Assembly (NCBI GenBank): GCA_017449495.1 | Contig: JAFTFO010000006.1 | Coordinates: forward strand, 62,001 to 126,000 | Origin: Prevotella sp. | GTDB taxonomy: Bacteria > Bacteroidota > Bacteroidia > Bacteroidales > Bacteroidaceae | Length of the DNA stretch: 64,000 nucleotides | Reading direction: 5' to 3' | Shown: in pieces, positions 3,457 through 26,982 of the stretch | Position numbering within the stretch: the stretch's first letter is position 1 | How the letters are laid out: each line of letters starts with the position of its first letter | Made by a program: the position numbers and the translations under genes | Notes under the pieces: generated by a model | What the model saw: only the letters and a program-made list of their open reading frames with translations | What the model was told of the DNA's origin: nothing | Database searches by the model: none

Positions 3457-4635
3457 ATGGGTACGTCTAAAAGATATAAGATCGTCTTCTGTACACCAGC
3501 CCTCTATTCTGCCGGTGGCGTAGAGCGGGTGGTATCCTTTAAGGCCAGCTACTTTGCAGAACAGTTAGGCTATGATGTGACGATTATCGTGACCGAGGGT
3601 AGGGGGCGGGATTGTTACTTTCCTTTGTCCGACCAGGTGAAGGTCATCAATTTTGAATTAGGCTTTGAGGCGTTATGGCAGGCTTCTTTTATCAAAAAGA
3701 TTTTTCTCTATCTGACTAAACAACGACAGTATAAAAGACTGTTGAAAGCTGAACTGATGCGTATCAGACCGGATATCACCATCAGCATGCTCCGGCGCGA
3801 GATCAATTTCCTGACCAGCATCCAAGACGGTAGTCGGAAGATTGGTGAACTGCATGTGAATAGAGCCAACTACCGAAATTTTGAAGCCAACGACTCCAAC
3901 GTCTTGAAACGTCTCTTTGCTAAACTCTGGATGAAGAGCCTGGTTGGTCAGTTGAGGCGTTTAGACCAGTTGGTAGTCCTGACAGAGAAGAGTAAGGCAT
4001 CCTGGCCAGAGTTGTCGAATGTGACGGTCATCCCAGACCCAATCCCCATACAAGTGGAGTGGGAAGTGGGAAGTGATGAGTATGGAGTGAAGGCCAAACG
4101 AGTCGTGACGATCGGGCGTTATGCCTATCAGAAAGGGTATGACCTATTACTACAGGCATGGGCCGAGGTTGAAAAGCAATATCCTGATTGGACCTTGGAT
4201 ATCTATGGCCAGGGCAATCAGACAAGCTATCGTCAATTGATGACGGAGCTGGGTGTTGATACTGAGCGGTGTCATCTGAATGGCCCCGTCAAAGATGTTG
4301 TTGAAGCGTATCGGGAGGGTTCAATCTTTGTATTGAGTTCCCGCTTTGAAGGCTTTGGACTGGTGCTGGTCGAGGCGATGGCCTGCGGGTTACCAGTAAT
4401 ATCATTCGACTGCCCGGCTGGTCCTGATGAGATTATCACCGATGGAGTCGATGGCCTGTTGGCTCCTTCTGGTGATGTTCATGCGTTGGCCGAAAAAATC
4501 ATGACGTTGATGGCTGACAAGGATCTGCGTCAACGACTGGCCAAACAAGCTCGCCAGACGGCACGGCGGTATGAAATGGCATCTCTTGCTAACCAATGGC
4601 AGAGGTTGTTTGAAACAGTCACCAATAACCGATAA
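3457..4635 (+). CDS. GT4 family glycosyltransferase
   Basis: A 392-residue GT-B fold retaining glycosyltransferase. The N-terminal half begins with VFCTPALYSAGGVERVV, typical of GT4 acceptor domains. The C-terminal donor-binding domain carries a GRYAYQKGYDLLL segment and the E-x7-E motif in EGFGLVLVEAMACGLP. The start at 3457 follows the -7 element; the longer frame would begin before the promoter. Residues around VEWEVGSDEYG are encoded by a heptanucleotide repeat (4054-4075). The stop is 5 nt before the next GT2 gene, with another heptanucleotide repeat across the junction. It is the first gene of a four-gene glycosyltransferase operon ending at 7659. Confidence 0.9.
   Translation: MGTSKRYKIVFCTPALYSAGGVERVVSFKASYFAEQLGYDVTIIVTEGRGRDCYFPLSDQVKVINFELGFEALWQASFIKKIFLYLTKQRQYKRLLKAELMRIRPDITISMLRREINFLTSIQDGSRKIGELHVNRANYRNFEANDSNVLKRLFAKLWMKSLVGQLRRLDQLVVLTEKSKASWPELSNVTVIPDPIPIQVEWEVGSDEYGVKAKRVVTIGRYAYQKGYDLLLQAWAEVEKQYPDWTLDIYGQGNQTSYRQLMTELGVDTERCHLNGPVKDVVEAYREGSIFVLSSRFEGFGLVLVEAMACGLPVISFDCPAGPDEIITDGVDGLLAPSGDVHALAEKIMTLMADKDLRQRLAKQARQTARRYEMASLANQWQRLFETVTNNR
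4054..4075 (+). repeat. Heptanucleotide repeat (GTGGGAA) inside a GT4 gene
   Basis: The coding sequence contains GTGGA followed by two perfect GTGGGAA units and a partial third. A gain or loss of one 7-nt unit would shift the frame of the GT4 gene. Similar 7-mers occur near 17.2, 45.35 and 47.83 kb. Confidence 0.6.
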
Positions 4636-5674: not shown

Positions 5675-6538
5675 ATGATAATGGCAAAGTGGTACGAAAA
5701 ATATCTCAGCATCTATGGGAAATCCTATAAGGAGGTCCCTGATGAGGTGCTCGACAGGATTAAGAGCCAGTTGGCGGGACGACAGAGCCTCGAGCCTGTG
5801 GCGTCTGTGGTGGTCATTGCCTATAATGAGGAGAAACGGTTGGCAGCCTGTCTCTGGTCACTGAGTGAGTTGCAGACCCAGTATCCGATAGAGATCCTGG
5901 GTGTCAACAACAATTCTAAAGATGAAACGGAACAGGTCTATCAGCGGTTGGGACTTCCTTATTTCAACGAGACCAAGCAGAGCCCTGGTTTTGCTCGCCA
6001 ATGTGGTTTGGAACATGCGAAGGGAAAGTATCACTTCTGCATTGATGCAGATACGTTTTATCCTCCTCGCTATGTTGATCTGATGATGACCAAACTCACA
6101 CGCCCGGATGTCTCCTGCGTGAGCTCTTTCTGGAGTTTCTTCCCTGACGAGCAACATTCTGCCTTTGGATTGCATCTCTTTGAATTGGCACGCGATCTGT
6201 TCCTGTATGTTCAGCACTTCAAACGCCCGGAACTCTGCGTCCGTGGTATGGTGTTTGCCTTCAATACGGACTATGCCCGGAAAGTGAAGATCCGAACGGA
6301 TATTCGTCGGGGAGAGGATGGGTCATTAGCCTTGTCGTTGAAACCTTATGGGAAGATCGCCTTCCTGTATGATAGGAAAGCGCGTCCTGTTACTGGTTAT
6401 GGCACGCTCGGAACACAGTCTTTATGGCAGAGTTTTGTCCAACATGTGAAAGTTCAGGGGCGTGGCATCACGCGAATTTTCTTCAAGAAAGACCATTATG
6501 AAGATAGTGACGACAATCTGGTAAAACCGAAGTCATGA
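5675..6538 (+). CDS. GT2 family glycosyltransferase
   Basis: A 287-residue GT2 enzyme. A short N-terminal extension precedes SVVVIAYNEEKRLAACLWSL. The usual VDDGS region is replaced by GVNNNSKDET, as in polyprenyl-phosphate hexose synthases and other atypical GT2 members, and the metal motif is CIDADTFYPP. No C-terminal membrane helices are obvious. Two ATGs are possible (5675 and 5681). The stop overlaps the ATG of the following GT4 gene by 4 nt, which points to translational coupling. The role is probably sugar transfer in repeat-unit assembly. Confidence 0.85.
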   Translation: MIMAKWYEKYLSIYGKSYKEVPDEVLDRIKSQLAGRQSLEPVASVVVIAYNEEKRLAACLWSLSELQTQYPIEILGVNNNSKDETEQVYQRLGLPYFNETKQSPGFARQCGLEHAKGKYHFCIDADTFYPPRYVDLMMTKLTRPDVSCVSSFWSFFPDEQHSAFGLHLFELARDLFLYVQHFKRPELCVRGMVFAFNTDYARKVKIRTDIRRGEDGSLALSLKPYGKIAFLYDRKARPVTGYGTLGTQSLWQSFVQHVKVQGRGITRIFFKKDHYEDSDDNLVKPKS

Positions 6539-16404: not shown

Positions 16405-17445
16405 ATGAAACAAAGGATAGAATACATTGATGCGATGCGAGGATTCACGATGATTCTCGTAGTCTATTCTCATGTCTGCAATTTCTGTTTAGGTGATAAA
16501 TGGATGGGGTGGAATGATGTGTTCTTCTTGTTTCGTCTGCCGTGTTTCTTCTTTATCAGTGGATGGCTGTTTGAACCTCACAGGGGGACTGTCCCTTGTG
16601 TGAGCAGCAACGCGGATTACACAGGGACTGTCCCCTCTGTGAGGTCTGTCGTCAAGAAGAAATTCATGGTTCAGATAGTGCCCACAATAATCTTCTTGCT
16701 GTTATTGGCACCTCCGCCACTGTTCTTCTCTAAACTTGGTGCGACAAAGGGTGGATATTGGTTTACATTTGCTTTGTTTGTGTTTTTCCTGTTATATCTT
16801 CTGTCGGAGCGATATCTCAAACGATGGGGTGGGGTCTTTGCCCTCATGATCTCTATCGCGGCCTTCTGTTATGACGCCTATTATAATCGTTATTTCAAGG
16901 ATATGGGCATGATGACACAGGCTTTGGGATTCCTGAGTTTTATTACGTGGCGCTATTATCTGTTTTTCTTCATCGGCACACGGGTCAAACGCCATTTCGA
17001 AGTGTTCCTGAGGTGGACGAGTCAGCCTATCGTCATGGCCGTTGTCGTTATCGGCTTTGTATGGATCGCCATGAATCCTCGGTCGGAGAACGCGTTCTGG
17101 GAGTACATCATATTTGCCGTGGGAGGGATCCTTGGAATGACGATGATCTTTACCCTCTTTCGTTATCTATACACCATCCCCCGTCTCTCACCTCTCACCT
17201 CTTCCCTCTCGCCTCTCAAATACATCGGAACGCGAACGCTCGACATCTACCTCCTCCATTATTTCTTCCTGCCACGATTCCTGTCAGACTATGCCCCTCA
17301 ACTTCAGGCCATTGACAGCAGACTTCTTGAATTTACCGTTGCCATTTCGCTTTCGTTGGTTGTGGTAGCAGTCTGTTTGTTGGTGAGTTACATCATCCGT
17401 CTCAACCCTTTCCTCGGACATTATCTTTTTGGCGTGAGGCAGTAA
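16405..17445 (+). CDS. Acyltransferase-3 (AT3) membrane protein with palindrome insert
   Basis: A 346-residue AT3 protein, paralogue of the one at 7642 with matching blocks along the whole length. After FFFISGWLF it has the segment EPHRGTVPCVSSNADYTGTV, encoded by a 69-bp pair of GGGACTGTCCC palindromes (16576-16644); the paralogue has a shorter, unrelated loop here. A heptanucleotide repeat (17184-17219) encodes LSPLTSSLSPL before the conserved RTLDIYLLHYF. The last codons (CAG TAA) already lie inside the left inverted repeat of the VirE element. It is transcribed alone, divergent from the operon at 16311. Confidence 0.85.
   Translation: MKQRIEYIDAMRGFTMILVVYSHVCNFCLGDKWMGWNDVFFLFRLPCFFFISGWLFEPHRGTVPCVSSNADYTGTVPSVRSVVKKKFMVQIVPTIIFLLLLAPPPLFFSKLGATKGGYWFTFALFVFFLLYLLSERYLKRWGGVFALMISIAAFCYDAYYNRYFKDMGMMTQALGFLSFITWRYYLFFFIGTRVKRHFEVFLRWTSQPIVMAVVVIGFVWIAMNPRSENAFWEYIIFAVGGILGMTMIFTLFRYLYTIPRLSPLTSSLSPLKYIGTRTLDIYLLHYFFLPRFLSDYAPQLQAIDSRLLEFTVAISLSLVVVAVCLLVSYIIRLNPFLGHYLFGVRQ
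16576..16644. repeat. Paired GGGACTGTCCC palindromes inside an AT3 gene
   Basis: The left arm (16576-16604) runs from CCTCACAGGGGGACTG to TTGTGTGAG, the right arm (16620-16644) from CACAGGGACTG to CTCTGTGAGG. The outer ends (CCTCACAG and CTGTGAGG) are inverted repeats of each other, so the 69-bp block can fold as a whole or as two hairpins. It equals 23 codons and keeps the frame open. Confidence 0.75.
17184..17219 (+). repeat. Heptanucleotide repeat (CTCACCT type) inside an AT3 gene
   Basis: CTCACCT twice, then CTTCCCT and CTCGCCT, followed by CTCA, make a degenerate 7-nt tandem array that encodes Leu, Ser, Pro and Thr residues. Slippage by one unit would break the AT3 frame. Confidence 0.6.
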
Positions 17446-17553
17446 AATCGCACTACTCGAACTACTTTCGAGCGTATCTTATTGAATATCAGGTGAAATA
17501 CGGTAGTATCATTGTCGGAAATGGGACTACTTTGGTACTACTGTTGAACTACT
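17439..17553 (+). repeat. Left inverted repeat of the VirE element
   Basis: About 115 bp, starting GCAGTAAAATCGCACTACTC. It matches the reverse complement of 19981-20094 with one gap and about sixteen mismatches, roughly 85% identity. It overlaps the stop codon of the AT3 gene ending at 17445. It is rich in ACTACT motifs. Confidence 0.85.
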
Positions 17554-17596
17554 GTCGTTGAAAAATTTTGGCGTTAGCGTTTGCCTATAGGCGAAC

Positions 17597-17646
17597 AACC
17601 GTTTGAGCCAAGGCAAACGGTTGTTTGAGCCAAGGCAAACGGTAGT
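17597..17646. repeat. Tandem 22-mer (iteron-like) with hairpin
   Basis: Two 22-nt direct repeats, 17603-17624 and 17625-17646, start TTTGAGCCAAGGCAAACGGT and differ at one base. The first overlaps a perfect hairpin with arms CAACCGTTTG (17597-17606) and CAAACGGTTG (17615-17624) around an 8-nt loop. Direct repeats plus a hairpin beside a helicase-like gene are typical of replication origins; that function is inferred. Confidence 0.7.
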
Positions 17647-17836
17647 AAGGATAGGGTAAAACCCCTGTGATCATGCCTGATAACCCCTATTAACAGGCAT
17701 CATCTTCCCTGTCAGGAGGCATCTGCAACAACCATACAAGGCATCAGCAACCATGTTAATGGCCATTCCCGTGGGGACATGATTCATGATTCACGACAAA
17801 AAGTGCTGCTTCCGATGAAAATAATGGCCTTTTTCC

Positions 17837-17867
17837 TTGCAAATGGCCTTATTTTTTAGTACCTTTG
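17837..17867 (+). promoter_or_regulatory. Promoter of the VirE-type gene
   Basis: TTG (17837-17839), 20 bp, TACCTTTG (17860-17867). The leader to the ATG at 17897 is about 25 nt. The element therefore carries its own promoter in host style. Confidence 0.65.
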
Positions 17868-17896
17868 CACATTGAAAAACAAAACGAACAATATCA

Positions 17897-19996
17897 ATGA
17901 AAATTACAAAGATCAAGACCAAAGCCGGGGCCTTCGGAGCCCCAACCACCACAGACCTCGACGACGTCGTGGAGCGCATGCGCTCGCCGAAGACGAAGGA
18001 GGCCGCCGACCGTGTCGCGGCCGTCGCGCTGAAGTCGAGGCTCGCCATTGAGAAGGGCGCCGCCCGCTTCCTGCTGCTCGACAACGACCGTCTGCCCTAC
18101 CTCGTGTTCAGTGCCACCTTCGGTCGCGAAGGCTTCGACAAGCCCAACGCACGGACGGGACTGCTGTTGCTGAACATTCCCTGTCCGCAGGGTGCGAGAC
18201 AGGTCAGCGAACTGCGCCGTCGCGTCAGTCAGATCCCCTACACGCTGCTCACCTTCGCGGGTGTCAGCGGCGTGACGCTGAAGGTGGTGGTGCGATGCGA
18301 CTATAAAGATACCAAAGAAATTGACAAAGACGCTTATGTCGCCTTCCTGAGGGAGGCTCATGACAATGCCGCCAGACTGTACACCTCGTTGGCGATGTGC
18401 GACCTGTTGGTGGGAGAGCAGACGCTCACCCGCGGCTGTCGCATGAGCTACGACCCGCAGCTCTACTACAACCCCGAGGCACTGCCGATGCCCGTCGTCC
18501 GCGAGGCCCACGACCCGTTGGGCGTCTATGCCGGCACGAAGGCCGACGACGACGGCACCGTCGTGTGGTACCCCGACTCCGACGAACAGCGACGGATAGA
18601 GATGGAGTTCCAGACCTGCCTCTCGAAGGCCCTCGACGACCAGCCAGGGAACATGGAGGCCTGTCTGCAGGCACTGGCCGACTACTGCGCCAAGGCCTTT
18701 CTGGCGGAGGAGGGCTGTGTGGTGCGCGCCGACTGGAACGCCCGCTTCAAGCCGTTGGGCGCCGACGTCATCCGCAAGACCTTCCGGAATGCCTATAAAA
18801 AACCTTACAACGGAAAGCCCGCCTCGCAGATGAACGAGAAGGAGCGTATCATGCGGAGCATCGAAGACTTCCTGAGCCGCCGCTACGAACTGCGTTACAA
18901 TGTGGTGAAGGGCATCACCGAGTTCCGACCCAACGACCTGCGCTTCAAGCAGTGGAAGACGCTGACGGACAGGGACTTGCGCAGCCTCGTCGTGGAGGAG
19001 ATGAAGGAGGGCGGCGAGAGTTGGATGAACGACATCAGGACTTATATCGAGTCGGCGCACGTGCAGGACTACAACCCCATCCACGAGTTCCTCGCTGCCT
19101 GCGGCCCGTGGGACGGAAAAGCGAATTATATTGAAGATTTCGCCCGTCGTCTACCGACGGACTACGACCGCTGGCCGCAGTACTTCCACCGCTGGTTCCT
19201 CGCGATGGTGGCGCAGGCCCTCGACCTGAACAAGGACTACGGCAACTCGATGGTGCCGCTGCTCATCGGCGAACAGGGTTATCTGAAGACGCAGTTCTGC
19301 AACCATATCCTGCCCCCGTCGATGCGCGAGTACTACATGAAGGACATCAAGATGGACAATGCCGAGCAGGTGGAGCGTGTCTTGGGCCGCATGTGGCTCG
19401 TCAATATCGACGAGTACGACGCGAAGACGCAGCGTGAGCAGGCGAAGATCAAGCGGCTGCTGACGGAGAAGGAGGTGCAGACGCGCAGGATGCGGTCAGA
19501 CCAGTACACGCTGACGCCCCGCCTTTGTTCGTTCATCGCCACCACCAACGACCTCGCGCCGCTGCCCTCCGGCGACGGCACCCGCCGTTACCTCTGTGTG
19601 GAGGTGACGGACAAGGTGGACATGAGTGGGAATATTCCTTACAAACAGATGTTCGCCCAGGCCGTCGCGGAGCTGCGCGATCCGGACTGTCTCTACTGGT
19701 TCACGAGCGATGACGAGCGAGAGATACAGGCGCACAACCAGCACTACCAGCAGGTGCAGCCCATCGAACAGCTGCTGCCGTCAATCCTTGTTCCCACCTC
19801 GGAGCACAAGCGCCAGAACCTCTGGCAGGTGAAGGATGTCCAGAAGGAACTCGAGAAACACCTCCGTTCCAGTGATATCCCCAACCTGAAGGCCCTCAGT
19901 ACCATCCTGAAGAATCTCAGATGGCCCAGAGGTGCCTCTAATGGCACGGAAGGCTATTACCTCAAACTGCGCAACAGTCCAGTAGGTCGACAGTAG
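17897..19996 (+). CDS. VirE-family primase/helicase-like protein (BT4734/BF3469 type)
   Basis: A 699-residue protein. The N-terminal part (to about residue 180) resembles the BT4734-like/VirE_N domain. The C-terminal part is the VirE P-loop ATPase with a Walker A-like GEQGYLKT (458-465), Walker B VNIDEYD (502-508) and a sensor motif FIATTND (546-552) followed by an Arg pair in GTRRYL. Such proteins are related to primase-helicases of mobile DNA and occur next to capsule loci in Bacteroidota. By eye the gene is much richer in G+C (about 60%) than its neighbours. It is the only gene between ~115-bp inverted repeats, and its last codons lie in the right repeat. No transposase or integrase is present. 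It is unrelated to Agrobacterium VirE2. Confidence 0.85.
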   Translation: MKITKIKTKAGAFGAPTTTDLDDVVERMRSPKTKEAADRVAAVALKSRLAIEKGAARFLLLDNDRLPYLVFSATFGREGFDKPNARTGLLLLNIPCPQGARQVSELRRRVSQIPYTLLTFAGVSGVTLKVVVRCDYKDTKEIDKDAYVAFLREAHDNAARLYTSLAMCDLLVGEQTLTRGCRMSYDPQLYYNPEALPMPVVREAHDPLGVYAGTKADDDGTVVWYPDSDEQRRIEMEFQTCLSKALDDQPGNMEACLQALADYCAKAFLAEEGCVVRADWNARFKPLGADVIRKTFRNAYKKPYNGKPASQMNEKERIMRSIEDFLSRRYELRYNVVKGITEFRPNDLRFKQWKTLTDRDLRSLVVEEMKEGGESWMNDIRTYIESAHVQDYNPIHEFLAACGPWDGKANYIEDFARRLPTDYDRWPQYFHRWFLAMVAQALDLNKDYGNSMVPLLIGEQGYLKTQFCNHILPPSMREYYMKDIKMDNAEQVERVLGRMWLVNIDEYDAKTQREQAKIKRLLTEKEVQTRRMRSDQYTLTPRLCSFIATTNDLAPLPSGDGTRRYLCVEVTDKVDMSGNIPYKQMFAQAVAELRDPDCLYWFTSDDEREIQAHNQHYQQVQPIEQLLPSILVPTSEHKRQNLWQVKDVQKELEKHLRSSDIPNLKALSTILKNLRWPRGASNGTEGYYLKLRNSPVGRQ

Positions 19997-20094
19997 TGTG
20001 AAAGTAGTCCCATTCTCGACAATGGGACTACCGTTTTTCTCCTGAAAATCAATAAGATATGCTCAAAAGTAGTTCGAGTAGTGCTATTTACTGC
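19981..20094 (-). repeat. Right inverted repeat of the VirE element
   Basis: 114 bp; its reverse complement aligns end to end with 17439-17553. It overlaps both the 3' end of the VirE-type gene (stop at 19994-19996) and the last codons of the minus-strand AT3 gene (stop at 20088-20090). No clear target-site duplication was found outside the repeats. Confidence 0.85.
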
Positions 20095-21110
20095 GAAAAC
20101 TTACGATAGATCGCATAAGCGATAACGAATATGGCTGCCTTTAGTAACGGAGCCAGAAGATAATGAATTGACAAAGCTGGTATGGAGCAACCGAAAAGGC
20201 TGAAGAATGCGGTATCGATGAAAGAAAAGAAGAACACGTAATGGGCCAGATAGATGAAATAGGCAGAGTCGCAGACCACCGACGGAAGGCGAGTGGTGGT
20301 TACGGAGAGGATTCTTGATGCAAGACAGAACACGGCAATGGCTCCAGTGAGACGGAAACAGAGCATGATGGAGGAAAAAATAGGTGTGTTGTATGTCAGC
20401 ATCATCGCCATAGCAAGAATCAACGACAATAGATAGGCTGGCCATTCAAACCGTTTGAGGCTTCCTATCAGATCCATCTTGCGGATACTCAAGAATGTTC
20501 CAAAAGAAAAGAAATAGACGGCATAGGCCGAGAGGCCTGGGATAAAGGCGTAGACGCCAGAGAGGTAGAGTGCCGTCAGCACGGCCATCAGCCAATAGCC
20601 ACACTTTTTTACTAAAATATATATAATAGGTGTCAGCAGTGAAACCACCATCAGGTCTCTTAGGAACCAGAGGGGCATGTTGGCAGGAGCCGTCATCAAC
20701 TGTTCATGTCCGAACCAGTCAATCTGTCTTCCCGCAGGGTCCCAAAACACCCAAAACATGTTCCAACTGAACGTCTTCAGTTTGACGGCCATCATCAGGT
20801 TCCAGATCAGATAGGGCAGCAGCAAGGTCTTAGCCCTTCTGAGCATCTTTGCCTTATAGATTCCGAGGCTCCATTTCTCGACATTCGCAAAAAACAAATA
20901 GCCCGACATGATGAAGAACACAGGCACCGCCACCTTCACCAGCGTCTGACTCACCAATAGCTTCAAGAACTCATAGGTATTCCAATCCGATGACAACAAC
21001 GAGAAATCCTCTGTCACTCCGCCATAGCTATGGGCAAAAGTGACGAGGATAATCATCGGGAACCGCAGTTGTCGAAAGACGTCGTATTGAGTTACATCGC
21101 TTCTATCCAT
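20088..21110 (-). CDS. Acyltransferase-3 (AT3) membrane protein
   Basis: A 340-residue AT3 protein (MDRSDVTQYDVFRQLRFPMI start, His in the VTFAHSYGG helix, PVFFIMSGYLFF motif, about ten hydrophobic segments). The ATG at 21110 is the first usable start; it lies only 6 nt after the end of the -7 box (21117-21124), so the mRNA would be nearly leaderless. The last two codons (CAG TAA) are within the right inverted repeat of the VirE element, just as the AT3 gene on the other side ends in the left repeat. It probably O-acylates a glycan. Confidence 0.82.
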   Translation of the reverse strand: MDRSDVTQYDVFRQLRFPMIILVTFAHSYGGVTEDFSLLSSDWNTYEFLKLLVSQTLVKVAVPVFFIMSGYLFFANVEKWSLGIYKAKMLRRAKTLLLPYLIWNLMMAVKLKTFSWNMFWVFWDPAGRQIDWFGHEQLMTAPANMPLWFLRDLMVVSLLTPIIYILVKKCGYWLMAVLTALYLSGVYAFIPGLSAYAVYFFSFGTFLSIRKMDLIGSLKRFEWPAYLLSLILAMAMMLTYNTPIFSSIMLCFRLTGAIAVFCLASRILSVTTTRLPSVVCDSAYFIYLAHYVFFFSFIDTAFFSLFGCSIPALSIHYLLAPLLKAAIFVIAYAIYRKFSQ

Positions 21111-21116
21111 CGCCTG

Positions 21117-21124
21117 CAAAATTA
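21117..21124 (-). promoter_or_regulatory. -7 element of the AT3 gene starting at 21110
   Basis: The minus strand reads TAATTTTG. It is so close to the ATG that transcription would start at or next to the start codon. No clear -33 TTTG. Confidence 0.45.
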
Positions 21125-23424: not shown

Positions 23425-23504
23425 CAGAAAAATAGAAAATACGGAGTGATTATCAGAATCTTAGAATCATAGCGTTGGGACTTGTACAAGTAATTCTATA
23501 TGAT

Positions 23505-25223
23505 ATGAAATTTAATTTGAAGAATAGCAGTCATTATATTTTAGTGATGCCATTCATGAACCTATTGTTCATGAATTGTTACTTTTATATGAATGGTCTT
23601 TTGGAATGGGTTTATTTATACTCATGGTTCATCAGCATTTGTTCTGTACTTTTCGACGTTTATGTCCTTGCATTTGTTTTCACCATTTTAACAGGTGGTC
23701 GAATTAAAATGGCATGTGCTATCACTCAGCTTGTCACCCTCGTTTGGTCGTTAATAAACACGTTCTATGGACGTTTTTTCTTTCAGTATATATCTTTGTC
23801 TGCTTTTGGAGAGGCTCAAAGTCTTCAGGATAGTATTGTCATAAAAAGTATCATGTCAGGAATAAGTTGGTATGATTTATTCTATATTATATCAATTGTC
23901 ATTTTTATCTTTCAATATAGAAGGATACCACAAATAAGATACGATTTTCGTTCCCATGCAAAGATGCTAATTGTCCCCATCATAACACTTGTCCTAAGTT
24001 GTTCTGTTTATACAGTATATCATTTTATTCATCCTCGTTATCGTAATAATTTGCAATTGTATGTGGACAGATTAAATGAATTTTTGTTTGATGGCTTCAG
24101 AGCAGGAACTCCCAACCTCGCCCATTTTCAAGCAGGAAGCATTCGAGTTATAATAACAGAAATACATGACCAAAGCATCAGAAAGGAATTGTCGGAAGGT
24201 CAAAGAGCTTTAATTACCAATTATTATCAGGACTTGTCTGAACGCACGACACAACATTCTCCCAATGAGAATCTCAAGAATGTGATATTCATTATTCTGG
24301 AATCCTTTTTGTCGTCACCAATTGATTTGACGGTGGATGGGAAAGAAATAACGCCTTTTTTGAATTCACTCAAGCGTGATACCTGTGTCTATTATAATGG
24401 CAGAATGTTGTCAGACATTACATGTGGAGAGTCAGGAGATGGGCAGTTTATATATATGAATGGTATTTTACCATTGCGCAATAGAATTACTGTCGGACAT
24501 ATAAAAAATAACACTTTTCCTTCTCTTCCAGGACTGTTGAAGAAGTATTATGGTATTAGACAAACGGAAATATTTGTTCCCTCAAGGCCAAACCTATGGC
24601 AACAATCAGATATGAATGAGGTATACGGAATATCAAAAATGTTTTCTCAATTGGATATTGATGCAGAAGAATCTGTAGACGATGAAAAGATATTTAAGTT
24701 TGCTTCTGCAAACATGGGCAAGACAAAAGAGCCTTTCTTCTCAATGATTCTTAGTATTTCTGGCCATAATCCATATGATAATTTCTATGGAGAAGATATT
24801 ATGAGAGATTCCAAGTCTTTCTCCAAAGAATACAGAAATTATCTGAATACATGTCACTATACAGATATTCATCTCAAACACTTTATAGAAGCAATCAAGC
24901 AGAAAGACCTATATAATCAATCGCTCATTATTATAGCAGCAGATCACAATGCCCATCTTAGTCAATTAAAAATGGACAAAAAGATTACAGAACACATTCC
25001 ATTGTTTATTATTAATGGTCGCATAAACAGCTCTGCTTGGAGTGGGGAAATGAGGCAGTTGGACGTCTATACTACTATTCTTGATATTCTCAATATCAAT
25101 AGCAATTGGCGCGGGTTAGGACATACTATTCTCTCTCCTAATTATCATAATTCGGTAAATGATCATGTATATGAACTTTCAGAGATGATAATTGAAGGAG
25201 ACTATTTTAAAGATATCAAATAA
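23505..25223 (+). CDS. LTA synthase-like membrane phosphotransferase (sulfatase fold)
   Basis: A 572-residue protein with about five N-terminal membrane helices and an extracytoplasmic alkaline-phosphatase/sulfatase domain. Visible site residues are Glu in FIILESFLSS, the nucleophile position in CGESGDGQF (Ser310, where LtaS has Thr), His in ISGHNPYD and Asp-His in AADHNAH. These enzymes move phosphoglycerol or phosphoethanolamine from phospholipids to surface glycans. The ATG at 23505 was chosen because the longer frame starts with TTG without support. A paralogue follows after 1 nt. The gene is A+T rich compared with the xylose and fucose genes. The transferred group is unknown. Confidence 0.82.
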   Translation: MKFNLKNSSHYILVMPFMNLLFMNCYFYMNGLLEWVYLYSWFISICSVLFDVYVLAFVFTILTGGRIKMACAITQLVTLVWSLINTFYGRFFFQYISLSAFGEAQSLQDSIVIKSIMSGISWYDLFYIISIVIFIFQYRRIPQIRYDFRSHAKMLIVPIITLVLSCSVYTVYHFIHPRYRNNLQLYVDRLNEFLFDGFRAGTPNLAHFQAGSIRVIITEIHDQSIRKELSEGQRALITNYYQDLSERTTQHSPNENLKNVIFIILESFLSSPIDLTVDGKEITPFLNSLKRDTCVYYNGRMLSDITCGESGDGQFIYMNGILPLRNRITVGHIKNNTFPSLPGLLKKYYGIRQTEIFVPSRPNLWQQSDMNEVYGISKMFSQLDIDAEESVDDEKIFKFASANMGKTKEPFFSMILSISGHNPYDNFYGEDIMRDSKSFSKEYRNYLNTCHYTDIHLKHFIEAIKQKDLYNQSLIIIAADHNAHLSQLKMDKKITEHIPLFIINGRINSSAWSGEMRQLDVYTTILDILNINSNWRGLGHTILSPNYHNSVNDHVYELSEMIIEGDYFKDIK

Positions 25224-25224
25224 G

Positions 25225-26982
25225 ATGAAACATCACACACATTTTCGAAAATATATAAATGCCAGTTTTTTGACCTTATTCATCATGTCGCTGATGAATC
25301 TGTTATTTCTGCATTATTACTTCTTGCAGACGATAGAATTGGAGGTTGGATGTTTCAAATCTTCATTATTAGACAATTTTCTGGCCAGCCTATTAGATAA
25401 CACTGTTTTACTTGTTGTAGTTTGGCTCATTACTTTTCGAAAACTTAGACTTAGTCTGACCATTACTTTTTTCATTACATTGATATGGTCATTCTGTAAT
25501 ACGTTTTATGCCCGATTCTTCCATCAATACCTTTCATGGTCTTCTATCGGACAAGCTGGCAATCTGACAGATAGCACTGTTACCAATAGTATGTTGGCTG
25601 GTTTTGAACTCACAGACCTCTATTATCCATTGATGATTTTACTTTTCTTCTTTTTTTTATTCCGAACAAGGAATCGGGTTGTAACAAAGAAGAGTCTTAT
25701 CACCACCATTATTGTATGGCTCTGTAGCCTTATCCTGTGTTTGGCAGTTCACTCTCTTTACATTTTTCATCCAGCTCATGGGTTTATATATGTGTTGGAG
25801 AAGACCATATTCACTCCTGAGAAGATGGATTCTATGTGGCCTAACTGGACTGTTTTCCACAAAGGTTTTTTCAGAAAACTTGTTTTAGACCAATTGTCTC
25901 ATAAGAGTGAGTTAAAGTTGACCAAGGACCAGAGACGAGAAATAGAAGCATTCTATTCTGACCATAGTCAGAGAGTTACGGAACGAACGGCCCCGGAACA
26001 TGTCAAGAATATTATTTTTATCTTGGTGGAATCATATCTCTCCGTAACGTCCGATCTGATTGTCGATGGAAAGGAGATCACTCCGAACTTAAACAAACTC
26101 AGGCATGATAGCACAGTATATTTCAATGGACATATGCGTCCCAATGTCTCTATAGGCGAATCTGCAGACGGTCAGTATATCTATATGGCAGGTCTTTTAC
26201 CGTTACATGCAGAAATAACGGTCAGTAAGGCAAAACATAACACTATTATAGGCTTGCCAGAACAATTAAAGAAGATGTACAAGGATGTCAAATCCTACAC
26301 AATCATCCCTACAAATCCTACTTTATGGGAACAACAGCCAATGTCAGAAGCCTATGGCTTTGACAGACTTTACTCTATGCTGGACTATCAGACAGATATG
26401 AGGGACAATTACAATAATGATTTCTTGACTGATGGCATGATTTTCAAATATGCAACTTATAAGAATCATGCATATAGTCAACCTTTCTTTTCCTTAATAC
26501 TTACTATGTCTATGCACCAACCATATGATTCTTTCATAAAGCATGGTTTTGAAGTCACAGACACAAGTCTTCCACAATCATATAAGAATTATCTCAATAG
26601 TTGTCACTATACAGACATGCAGATTGGAAATTATATGGAGGCATTAAAAGAAGAAGGACTTTATGACAATAGTCTAATTGTTATTGTAGCTGACCATGAT
26701 GCTCGGCCAAGATATCTTGATATGGAGGGAAAGATTCCAGATGACATCCCTATCTATATCGTTAATGGTGGATTTAATCCAGTCAACGCATGGGATGGTG
26801 CATGCAACCAGCTAGACGTGTATACAACCATACTTGATATTATGGGTATCGACAGTAGATGGCGTGGTCTGGGCCATACATTATTAAATAAGAACTATCA
26901 GAATTCTGTGACGGAAAAGACACAAGAATTATCTGACTGGATCATCTACAGTAACTATTTTAACAAAAAAGGTTTTGAATGA
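25225..26982 (+). CDS. LTA synthase-like membrane phosphotransferase (second copy)
   Basis: A 585-residue paralogue of the preceding gene, matching it throughout: helices at the N-terminus, IFILVESYLS with the metal-binding Glu, IGESADGQY with Ser313 at the nucleophile position, SMHQPYD and VADHDAR. Both copies end in a QLDVYTTILDI...WRGLGHT block. Start at 25225, 1 nt after the stop of the first copy. The two proteins may act in sequence or on different acceptors, as initiating and extending enzymes do in some LtaS systems; this is inference. A deacetylase gene follows after 1 nt. Confidence 0.82.
   Translation: MKHHTHFRKYINASFLTLFIMSLMNLLFLHYYFLQTIELEVGCFKSSLLDNFLASLLDNTVLLVVVWLITFRKLRLSLTITFFITLIWSFCNTFYARFFHQYLSWSSIGQAGNLTDSTVTNSMLAGFELTDLYYPLMILLFFFFLFRTRNRVVTKKSLITTIIVWLCSLILCLAVHSLYIFHPAHGFIYVLEKTIFTPEKMDSMWPNWTVFHKGFFRKLVLDQLSHKSELKLTKDQRREIEAFYSDHSQRVTERTAPEHVKNIIFILVESYLSVTSDLIVDGKEITPNLNKLRHDSTVYFNGHMRPNVSIGESADGQYIYMAGLLPLHAEITVSKAKHNTIIGLPEQLKKMYKDVKSYTIIPTNPTLWEQQPMSEAYGFDRLYSMLDYQTDMRDNYNNDFLTDGMIFKYATYKNHAYSQPFFSLILTMSMHQPYDSFIKHGFEVTDTSLPQSYKNYLNSCHYTDMQIGNYMEALKEEGLYDNSLIVIVADHDARPRYLDMEGKIPDDIPIYIVNGGFNPVNAWDGACNQLDVYTTILDIMGIDSRWRGLGHTLLNKNYQNSVTEKTQELSDWIIYSNYFNKKGFE

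Follow-up and report, generated by a model that had tools for sequence, protein, structure and literature searches.

What is a solitary VirE gene doing between two inverted repeats? Bacteroidota commonly carry VirE/BT4734 genes, which are not known to do any particular job. The question is posed by positions 17439-20094 of a 64,000-nucleotide stretch of Prevotella sp. DNA (contig JAFTFO010000006.1; hereafter the window), which an earlier note had described as a VirE-type gene enclosed by repeats of about 115 bp and possibly a compact mobile element. The reading that we narrowly favour is that this segment is a minimal mobile Rep-plus-origin cassette, bounded on either side by an origin-like array and acquired or lost as a whole.

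Inverted arms around a single gene

The two repeats, referred to here as arms, span 17439-17554 (left, plus strand) and 19980-20094 (right, an inverted copy on the minus strand); they align over 116 columns with one gap and 85% identity, include an ungapped core of 110 nt (17445-17554 and 19980-20089; 85%), and score 145, whereas 20 shuffles reached at most 31. The left arm consists of two plus-strand ACTACT units, U1 (17452-17457) and U2 (17461-17466), a spacer, an inverted unit GGTAGT (17502-17507, minus strand), and three further plus-strand ACTACT units, U3-U5 (span 17526-17553), which begin at 17526, 17537, and 17548 with a period of 11 bp. The right arm carries minus-strand units at 20077-20082, 20068-20073, 20003-20008, 19992-19997, and 19981-19985, and an inverted unit at 20027-20032. 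The word CTACT occurs five times in each window arm, a significant enrichment (p = 5e-5), while a 7-mer repetition test on the same arms gave no significance (p = 0.80 and 0.88). Both flanking genes encode acyltransferase 3 (AT3) proteins, and their CAG TAA ends sit inside the arms, as the earlier note had stated: the left gene (16405-17445, plus strand) has, from the arm edge on, an end unlike that of four relatives, and the right gene (20088-21119, minus strand), which ends within the arm, differs at its end from one relative (L166). The VirE stop codon (19994-19996) falls within the right arm. An Rfam scan yielded two sub-threshold matches only, which we read as chance.

The VirE gene (17897-19996, plus strand) encodes a 699-aa BT4734/VapE protein, an initiator-type helicase, and is GC-rich as described (60.5%, against 43.7% for the window). 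Its Pfam domains are BT4734-like_N, of a primase-like family (18086-18469; aa 64-191), and VapE-like, the helicase domain (19106-19750; aa 404-618), and a structure model predicts a winged helix in the last ~80 residues (19760-19969; aa 622-691). The leader (17561-17896, plus strand) holds an imperfect inverted repeat, 17575-17605/17614-17644 (overall 17575-17644), and a TACCTTTG box at 17860-17867; TAnnTTTG is the -7 box of Bacteroidota. The single-gene layout was borne out, VirE and ORFs overlapping it being all that lies between the arms: integrase, regulator, and packaging genes are absent, and recombinase, nuclease, and transposase are absent among the ORFs and Pfam domains of the cassette. 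Profile and fold comparison agree on 7pds, PriRep1, which we take to be SaPI-borne, as the nearest solved structure to the helicase. In the designation 'primase/helicase', the first half is doubtful, as the primase fold shows no recognisable motif I: where we presume the motif to lie in VirE, the window protein and a consensus of 27 read LNIP, and four of seven distant VirE members read LExN. Two PADLOC models hit the N-terminal part of the protein, one for a PrimPol type and, weakly (4.9e-5), one for a reverse-transcriptase-associated VirE. Motif I of AEP primases is defined as hhhDhD/E in the accessible part of PMC5862659.

Arms recur in the VirE family with differing words

Such arms were found at 31 of 47 testable VirE-family loci, the window included, versus 0 of 70 control ORFs (70 of 102 were tested, the remainder being dropped for short flanks). 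The 47 loci are those left from 65 once 13 truncated or unfit loci and five with less than 50% identity had been removed, and they include two same-site pairs, L054/L075 and L068/L069; at the site shared by the latter, L069 has no right arm. Sixteen of the 47 had an arm score below 45, and three of the 31 armed loci (L043, L052, and L096) match over just 32-50 columns. The figure for a distant VirE set was 6 of 38, with two loci entered twice (L011/L103 and L013/L105). Judged by eye, most arms follow one plan, written in differing words: a pair of short units is separated by a ~35-nt spacer from an inverted unit, after which come three further units. The BT4734/BF3469 genes of Bacteroides/Parabacteroides belong to the same protein family, with an HU gene adjoining in two of three loci viewed and one array of the same plan upstream of L262 (by eye); unlike the window element, all three relatives tested there lack the inverted arm pair.

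The several genomic copies of the 115-bp repeat that the earlier note had named as a sign of mobility did not appear: the window's own genome (assembly 68% complete) returned only the two window arms and short matches of 14-28 bases. Because elements carry their own arm pairs, a search for copies of one repeat misses the pattern, which emerged when each VirE locus was aligned with itself. A second copy in the same genome, C23, is 91% identical to the window over VirE aa 1-456, and its leader is 83% identical over 17561-17745, the alignment beginning just inside the arm, while the arms themselves are unalignable; along 126 bp, the left arm of C23 matches the right arm found on contig C5. Some relatives have similar arms in common, though C23 and the window differ. 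These replaced arm pairs bear on the idea of a transposon-like or MITE-like element, whose terminal inverted repeats would be mobilised in trans by a recombinase from another locus. Such an element would fit with a single gene between inverted ends, with the diversity of sites, and with internally deleted copies (L084 and L087), but its ends should not differ between copies, least of all between two that are 91% alike inside; by eye no target-site duplication was seen at the window element, and its arms resemble iteron arrays. We consider this explanation highly unlikely.

An HU-like (HU-HIG) gene is present at 39 of 65 VirE loci, frequently ending at the arm edge. This association, together with the position of the right arm at the VirE stop, is what would be expected if the arms served a resident module as operators or terminators, bound by VirE and HU for the control of expression, with neither replication nor mobility. 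That reading, which we hold to be unlikely, is opposed by the window element, which has no HU gene, by the initiator-type helicase core, which an operator does not need, and by the diversity of sites, one of them empty in relatives.

Could the block instead be the remnant of a larger integrative element or satellite that has decayed down to its replication module? G024 contains four similar ~15-kb stretches, each closed by a VirE gene, and one of them carries tyrosine integrase, fimbrial, and DnaB-like genes; moreover, 89 phage and 38 plasmid records contain relatives with less than 60% identity. Decay from such a source is nonetheless very unlikely in our estimation, given that the neighbours in the close family are unrelated genes and that long open VirE genes are retained across many species.

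Arms vary together with the VirE C-terminus

Identity in 40-aa VirE windows was compared with left-arm similarity (28 elements; the Mantel set comprised loci with an arm score of at least 45, without L091, and the protein comparison left out L068, L079, and L084, in which VirE is broken or deleted). Left-arm similarity tracks the last ~80 VirE residues more than the remainder of the protein, even though their coding region lies more than 2 kb from the left arm. For aa 660-700, rho was 0.51 by alignment and 0.37 by k-mers, and the partial correlation given the whole protein was 0.43 and 0.28, respectively, whereas partial correlations below aa 600 ranged from -0.16 to 0.17 (alignment); by the k-mer measure, some correlation is left for the body when the C-terminus is controlled for (0.17, p = 0.024). 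The locus whose arms are nearest to the window's among 28 others, L095, matches it at 93/73% in the C-terminus and at 48-85% in the body. Two further loci share a C-terminus with the window: L047 (80/69%) has no detectable arms, and the arms of L044 (70/70%), when paired with the window's, fall outside the 30 most similar pairs. HU was considered as a reader of the arm word and set aside, as arm similarity over the same 210 pairs correlates at 0.32 with HU identity versus 0.45 with VirE, and the window has no HU. The covariation suggests that the C-terminal tail of VirE may read the arm word. The C-terminal codons run directly on into the right arm, so linkage together with homogenisation of the arms could yield covariation without binding.

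Sites, orientation, and neighbours

A comparable site lacks the element in 8 of 30 relatives examined. These are TrpB loci (30 examined, from 119 matching genomes), in which Hsp20 is present in 11 and within ~120 bp of TrpB in 8, with neither VirE nor HU in the examined flanks of any of the 30. L062 does not represent a clean insertion from arm to arm, as about 85 bp of additional sequence lies on either side. The nuoN site lends weak support for an empty site: five relatives have no HU or VirE within 1.5 kb, with the right flank mismatched. Two other candidates were rejected. TatC proved uninformative, its 11 ortholog loci having no VorB, HU, or VirE in the flanks covered. L176, where the left AT3 gene is directly followed by UbiA, is not a clean empty window site because the right AT3 gene lies elsewhere in relatives and a distant VirE lies ~3 kb away in L176 itself.

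VirE is present in both orientations with similar flanks: the order HU-VirE-large gene is found in L038 and L043, and VirE is reversed in L081 and in L080/L096. An invertible cassette with no mobility of its own, in which VirE is flipped by recombination between the arms, be it as a switch or incidentally, would produce this arrangement, and arms of 110 bp at 85% identity would probably permit homologous recombination. Where compared, the large-protein genes flanking VirE share only 41-46% identity, so separate insertions in opposite orientations may account for the pattern in place of an inversion event. Inversion alone leaves the diverse sites and the empty site unexplained, and we judge it highly unlikely.

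In the close family, no Pfam family matched more than four times among 64 flanking proteins (of 84; shorter or doubtful ones were omitted from the scan). For the close family this argues against a constant association with capsule loci, the setting mentioned in the earlier note, of which the two AT3 genes were considered at the window element; for the wider family, a distant VirE relative in 7 of 15 regions around AT3 homologues argues in favour of one. The proposed mobility is supported in part: a one-gene block with inverted ends, relatives at many unrelated sites, and a comparable site empty in relatives speak for it, and the arm sequence is not multi-copy. Taken at the level of sequence, the distribution suggests that the element comes and goes in genomes as a block.

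A candidate Rep-plus-origin cassette

In the mechanism that we propose, the sole cassette protein would be a VapE/PriRep-type initiator helicase, and each arm an array of iterons arranged as in a satellite origin, to either side of a spacer, with the gene between the two facing arms. VirE would use its C-terminal winged helix to bind the iteron word of its own element at either end, and the helicase would open the DNA at the arms, so that the segment between them is copied locally. Over evolutionary time, copies would be gained, lost, and spread to new sites by some route of excision and insertion; the specificity domain and the arms would change jointly, both arms would be kept alike, and the segment could come to lie in either orientation. 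Self-replication of the window element, one of the options in the earlier note, would be plausible.

AAV-type Rep is a helicase initiator between inverted terminal repeats that carry its short binding words. One helicase initiator enclosed by inverted repeats is a likeness by analogy only, for the window element has no nuclease domain by Pfam, and the viral life cycle is not part of the comparison. A transposon or insertion sequence differs in having a transposase and terminal repeats conserved between copies. Closer parallels are found in SaPI and PICI; PICI origins consist of two iteron sets around an AT-rich region (PMC6092414). VirE is an initiator helicase homologous to VapE/PriRep; the window right arm, immediately downstream of VirE, likewise has a spacer with iterons to its left and right; and iteron words differ between elements there too. 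In excerpts of PMC7581432, the C-terminal domain of SaPI Rep and of SCCmec Cch2 recognises iterons downstream of the gene, for Cch2 as an isolated domain binding just downstream, to which the covariation of arms and C-terminus would be the parallel in VirE. Unlike SaPI/PICI, the window element has a second, inverted array upstream and neither an integrase nor a packaging gene, and its primase motif I is not seen; unlike VirE, Cch2 is a Primase_Cterm/D5-type helicase, with one such region described in those excerpts, between cch2 and ccrC. Two facing origins around a replication module were not found in the accessible text of the open literature searched (subscription papers and preprints lay outside it).

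More tentatively, these loci may be minimal mobile elements of a new kind. Each would have a single initiator helicase, with an exchangeable C-terminal winged helix reading a private iteron word, between two inverted origin-like arrays, and would spread by end copying without its own recombinase, while word and reader diverge so that several elements can share a genome free of cross-talk. Should the arms function as origins, the presence of VirE/BT4734 genes would be explained: they would form a stand-alone replication module with two facing origins, comparable to a phage satellite stripped down to its copying unit. The covariation itself supplies natural pairings of an iteron word with a winged helix by the dozen, which may suffice for reading out a recognition code.

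The VirE gene and its arms

A VirE primase/helicase gene within inverted repeats of about 115 bp had been read in the earlier note as a possible compact mobile element, and the repeat is present as claimed, at 17439-17554 and 19980-20094 (116 columns, one gap, 85% identity). The single gene between these arms (17897-19996; GC 60.5% vs 43.7% window-wide) encodes the 699-aa protein VirE, whose N-terminal domain is BT4734-like and whose helicase domain is VapE-like. Its 3' end and those of the flanking acyltransferase 3 genes, AT3L on the left and AT3R on the right, all lie within the arms. The left arm carries the unit ACTACT in direct orientation at 17452, 17461, 17526, 17537 and 17548 and an inverted unit at 17502, a layout mirrored in the right arm. 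CTACT occurs five times per arm (p 5e-5, the lowest value that the shuffle test can give); 7-mer repetition in the window arms was not significant. The AT3L coding sequence (16580-16643) contains a 25-nt direct repeat (84%) that includes GGGACTGTCCC. Two neighbouring look-alike genes of 582 and 596 aa at 23475-26982 are, by eye only, sulfatase/LTA-synthase-like.

The solved protein nearest to VirE is 7pds, PriRep1 with dsDNA, both by profile (E 5.5e-19) and by fold (E 8.6e-14). VirE contains GEQGYLKT and NIDEYD, which we take to be Walker A and Walker B. At the place where motif I would presumably fall, LNIP is found in the window protein and in the consensus of 27, and LExN in four of seven distant members. 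PMC5862659 gives motif I of AEP primases as hhhDhD/E. Because LNIP or LExN stands where this motif is expected, primase activity is doubtful.

Recurrence of the arm-bounded block

The arm-bounded VirE block is real and recurrent. A protein search with VirE returned 54 loci in named genomes, whose titles mostly give Prevotella or Prevotellaceae and in many cases a ruminant source; close paralogues are also present in the genome of the window. The upstream region of each locus was compared with its own downstream region for an inverted repeat, with a pass at a score of at least 45. This score was reached by 31 of 47 testable loci, the window counted, and by none of 70 control ORFs of at least 400 aa from the same loci; the best control scored 35, a value exceeded by 35 of the 47. 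The match is short (32-50 columns) in three passing loci (L043, L052 and L096), and 6 of 38 more distant VirE loci pass. Internal deletions occur in the VirE copies of L084, whose arms are still 89% alike, and of L087, where the arm test detected none. Of 15 regions surrounding AT3 homologues (L162-L176, 10-14 kb each), 7 contain a distant VirE relative.

Most arms share a plan and not a sequence: by eye, two direct units are followed by a spacer (about 35 nt), a unit in inverted orientation and three further direct units, these last about 10-12 bp apart. With all elements pooled, the 7-mer test is passed by 44 of 64 arms and by 4 of 59 coding segments. The words differ among elements (GTGCCCCT, GGTGCTAT and ATCCTGCT among others); usually one word serves both ends of an element, and it can be common to close relatives.

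Arm replacement and the VirE C-terminus

Three contigs of the same genome, C23, C5 and C4, break within VirE, as near-identical copies would be expected to do. The C23 arm matches the right arm on C5 over 126 bp, which suggests that the two contigs are halves of one element. Compared with the window, C23 is 91% identical over VirE aa 1-456 and 83% over the leader, with similarity starting at the inner arm edge; the arms themselves are unalignable. On these alignments, arm pairs evidently get replaced.

The VirE C-terminus varies together with the arms. Identity of window VirE to L050, C23 and C5 is 82-100% in regions up to aa 620 and 30-57% beyond. L095, whose arms are nearest to those of the window, has the opposite pattern, with 48-85% in the body and 93/73% in the C-terminus; at the DNA level, aa 621-693 are 84% identical, the arms 68-73% and the leader 35-58%. 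Among 28 elements, left-arm similarity correlated most strongly with VirE identity at aa 660-700, by alignment (rho 0.51; partial 0.43 given the whole protein) and by k-mers (0.37; partial 0.28). Partial Mantel values were 0.40 (alignment) and 0.26 (k-mers; both p 0.0005) for the C-terminus given the body, and 0.12 (p 0.06) and 0.17 (p 0.024) for the body given the C-terminus. Since the right arm is contiguous with the C-terminal codons, linkage combined with homogenisation of the left arm would yield the same covariation, and L047 and L044 share the C-terminus of the window protein without having arms that match. In the AlphaFold model of window VirE (mean pLDDT 84.8, pTM 0.60), residues 622-691 form three helices and a beta wing.

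Genomic sites and neighbouring genes

A Pfam scan of proteins flanking VirE elements (n = 64) found no family matched by more than four. The last codons differ from the arm edge onward between AT3L and four relatives and between AT3R and one, in agreement with insertion at gene ends. The L062 element, with an arm score of 50, separates convergent Hsp20 and TrpB genes. In 8 of the 30 relatives examined, about 50-120 bp lie between these two genes; by eye, seven of these gaps hold a hairpin-like terminator, and the eighth (L200) reaches the contig end. Neither VirE nor HU was found in the examined TrpB-locus flanks of the 30 relatives. L062 carries two terminators, plus some 85 bp of extra sequence flanking each arm on the outside, so either the insertion was not cleanly arm to arm or it has since decayed. 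The complete genome G024 contains four stretches of about 15 kb that resemble one another (L115-L118; blocks mostly 77-95% identical); on the right, all four stop at the outer boundary of the VirE right arm, and their arm pairs are weak (scores 30-42). L115 encodes a tyrosine integrase, fimbrial and RteC-like proteins, an M15 peptidase, a Toprim/DnaB-like protein and VirE. L166 holds four GCCTTAAGGC palindromes at 5885-6090, in the interval that separates the AT3R ortholog from a convergent HU gene; behind these lies a truncated UbiA gene.

An HU-HIG gene is present in 39 of 65 VirE loci (two checked with Pfam), far from VirE in three and as a fragment in one; the window element has no HU gene. 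The HU-HIG end often coincides with the outer arm edge, the gene adjoins VirE on the right, converging, in five loci, and in L067 an HU 3' end is present on both sides of the element. In L038 and L043, HU lies to the left of VirE and a very large protein gene runs toward it from the right, an order that C23/C5, if one element, would share. Relatives of this large gene stand to the left of VirE in L081 and L080/L096, where HU approaches convergently from the other side, so that VirE is reversed relative to its flanks. As the large genes of the two types are only 41-46% identical, the reversal would reflect either an inversion with the arms as endpoints or insertions in opposite orientations. 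In L037, L038, L039, L043, L080/L096, L081 and C5 (L121), the large gene, which encodes 3931 aa on C5 and elsewhere runs off the locus edge, has its 3' end toward the element, to the left or to the right of VirE; in some of these loci so does a 410-483-aa gene.

Comparison with known replicons

The window right arm and VirE fit the SaPI/PICI-type arrangement of a Rep gene with a downstream iteron origin (PMC7581432, PMC6092414), but the excerpts of those accounts describe no inverted second arm. By eye, the Bacteroides finegoldii locus L262 has a single array of the window-arm plan, with the iteron-like unit ATGAGAGAT, upstream of position 4001 and of a VirE family member, and no inverted arm pair was found in any of the three Bacteroides/Parabacteroides family loci tested. 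The pair may therefore derive from a single-origin ancestor. The best reading of the VirE block is a replication cassette of the Rep-plus-iteron type that bears origin-like arrays at both ends, and for which we infer binding, replication and movement.
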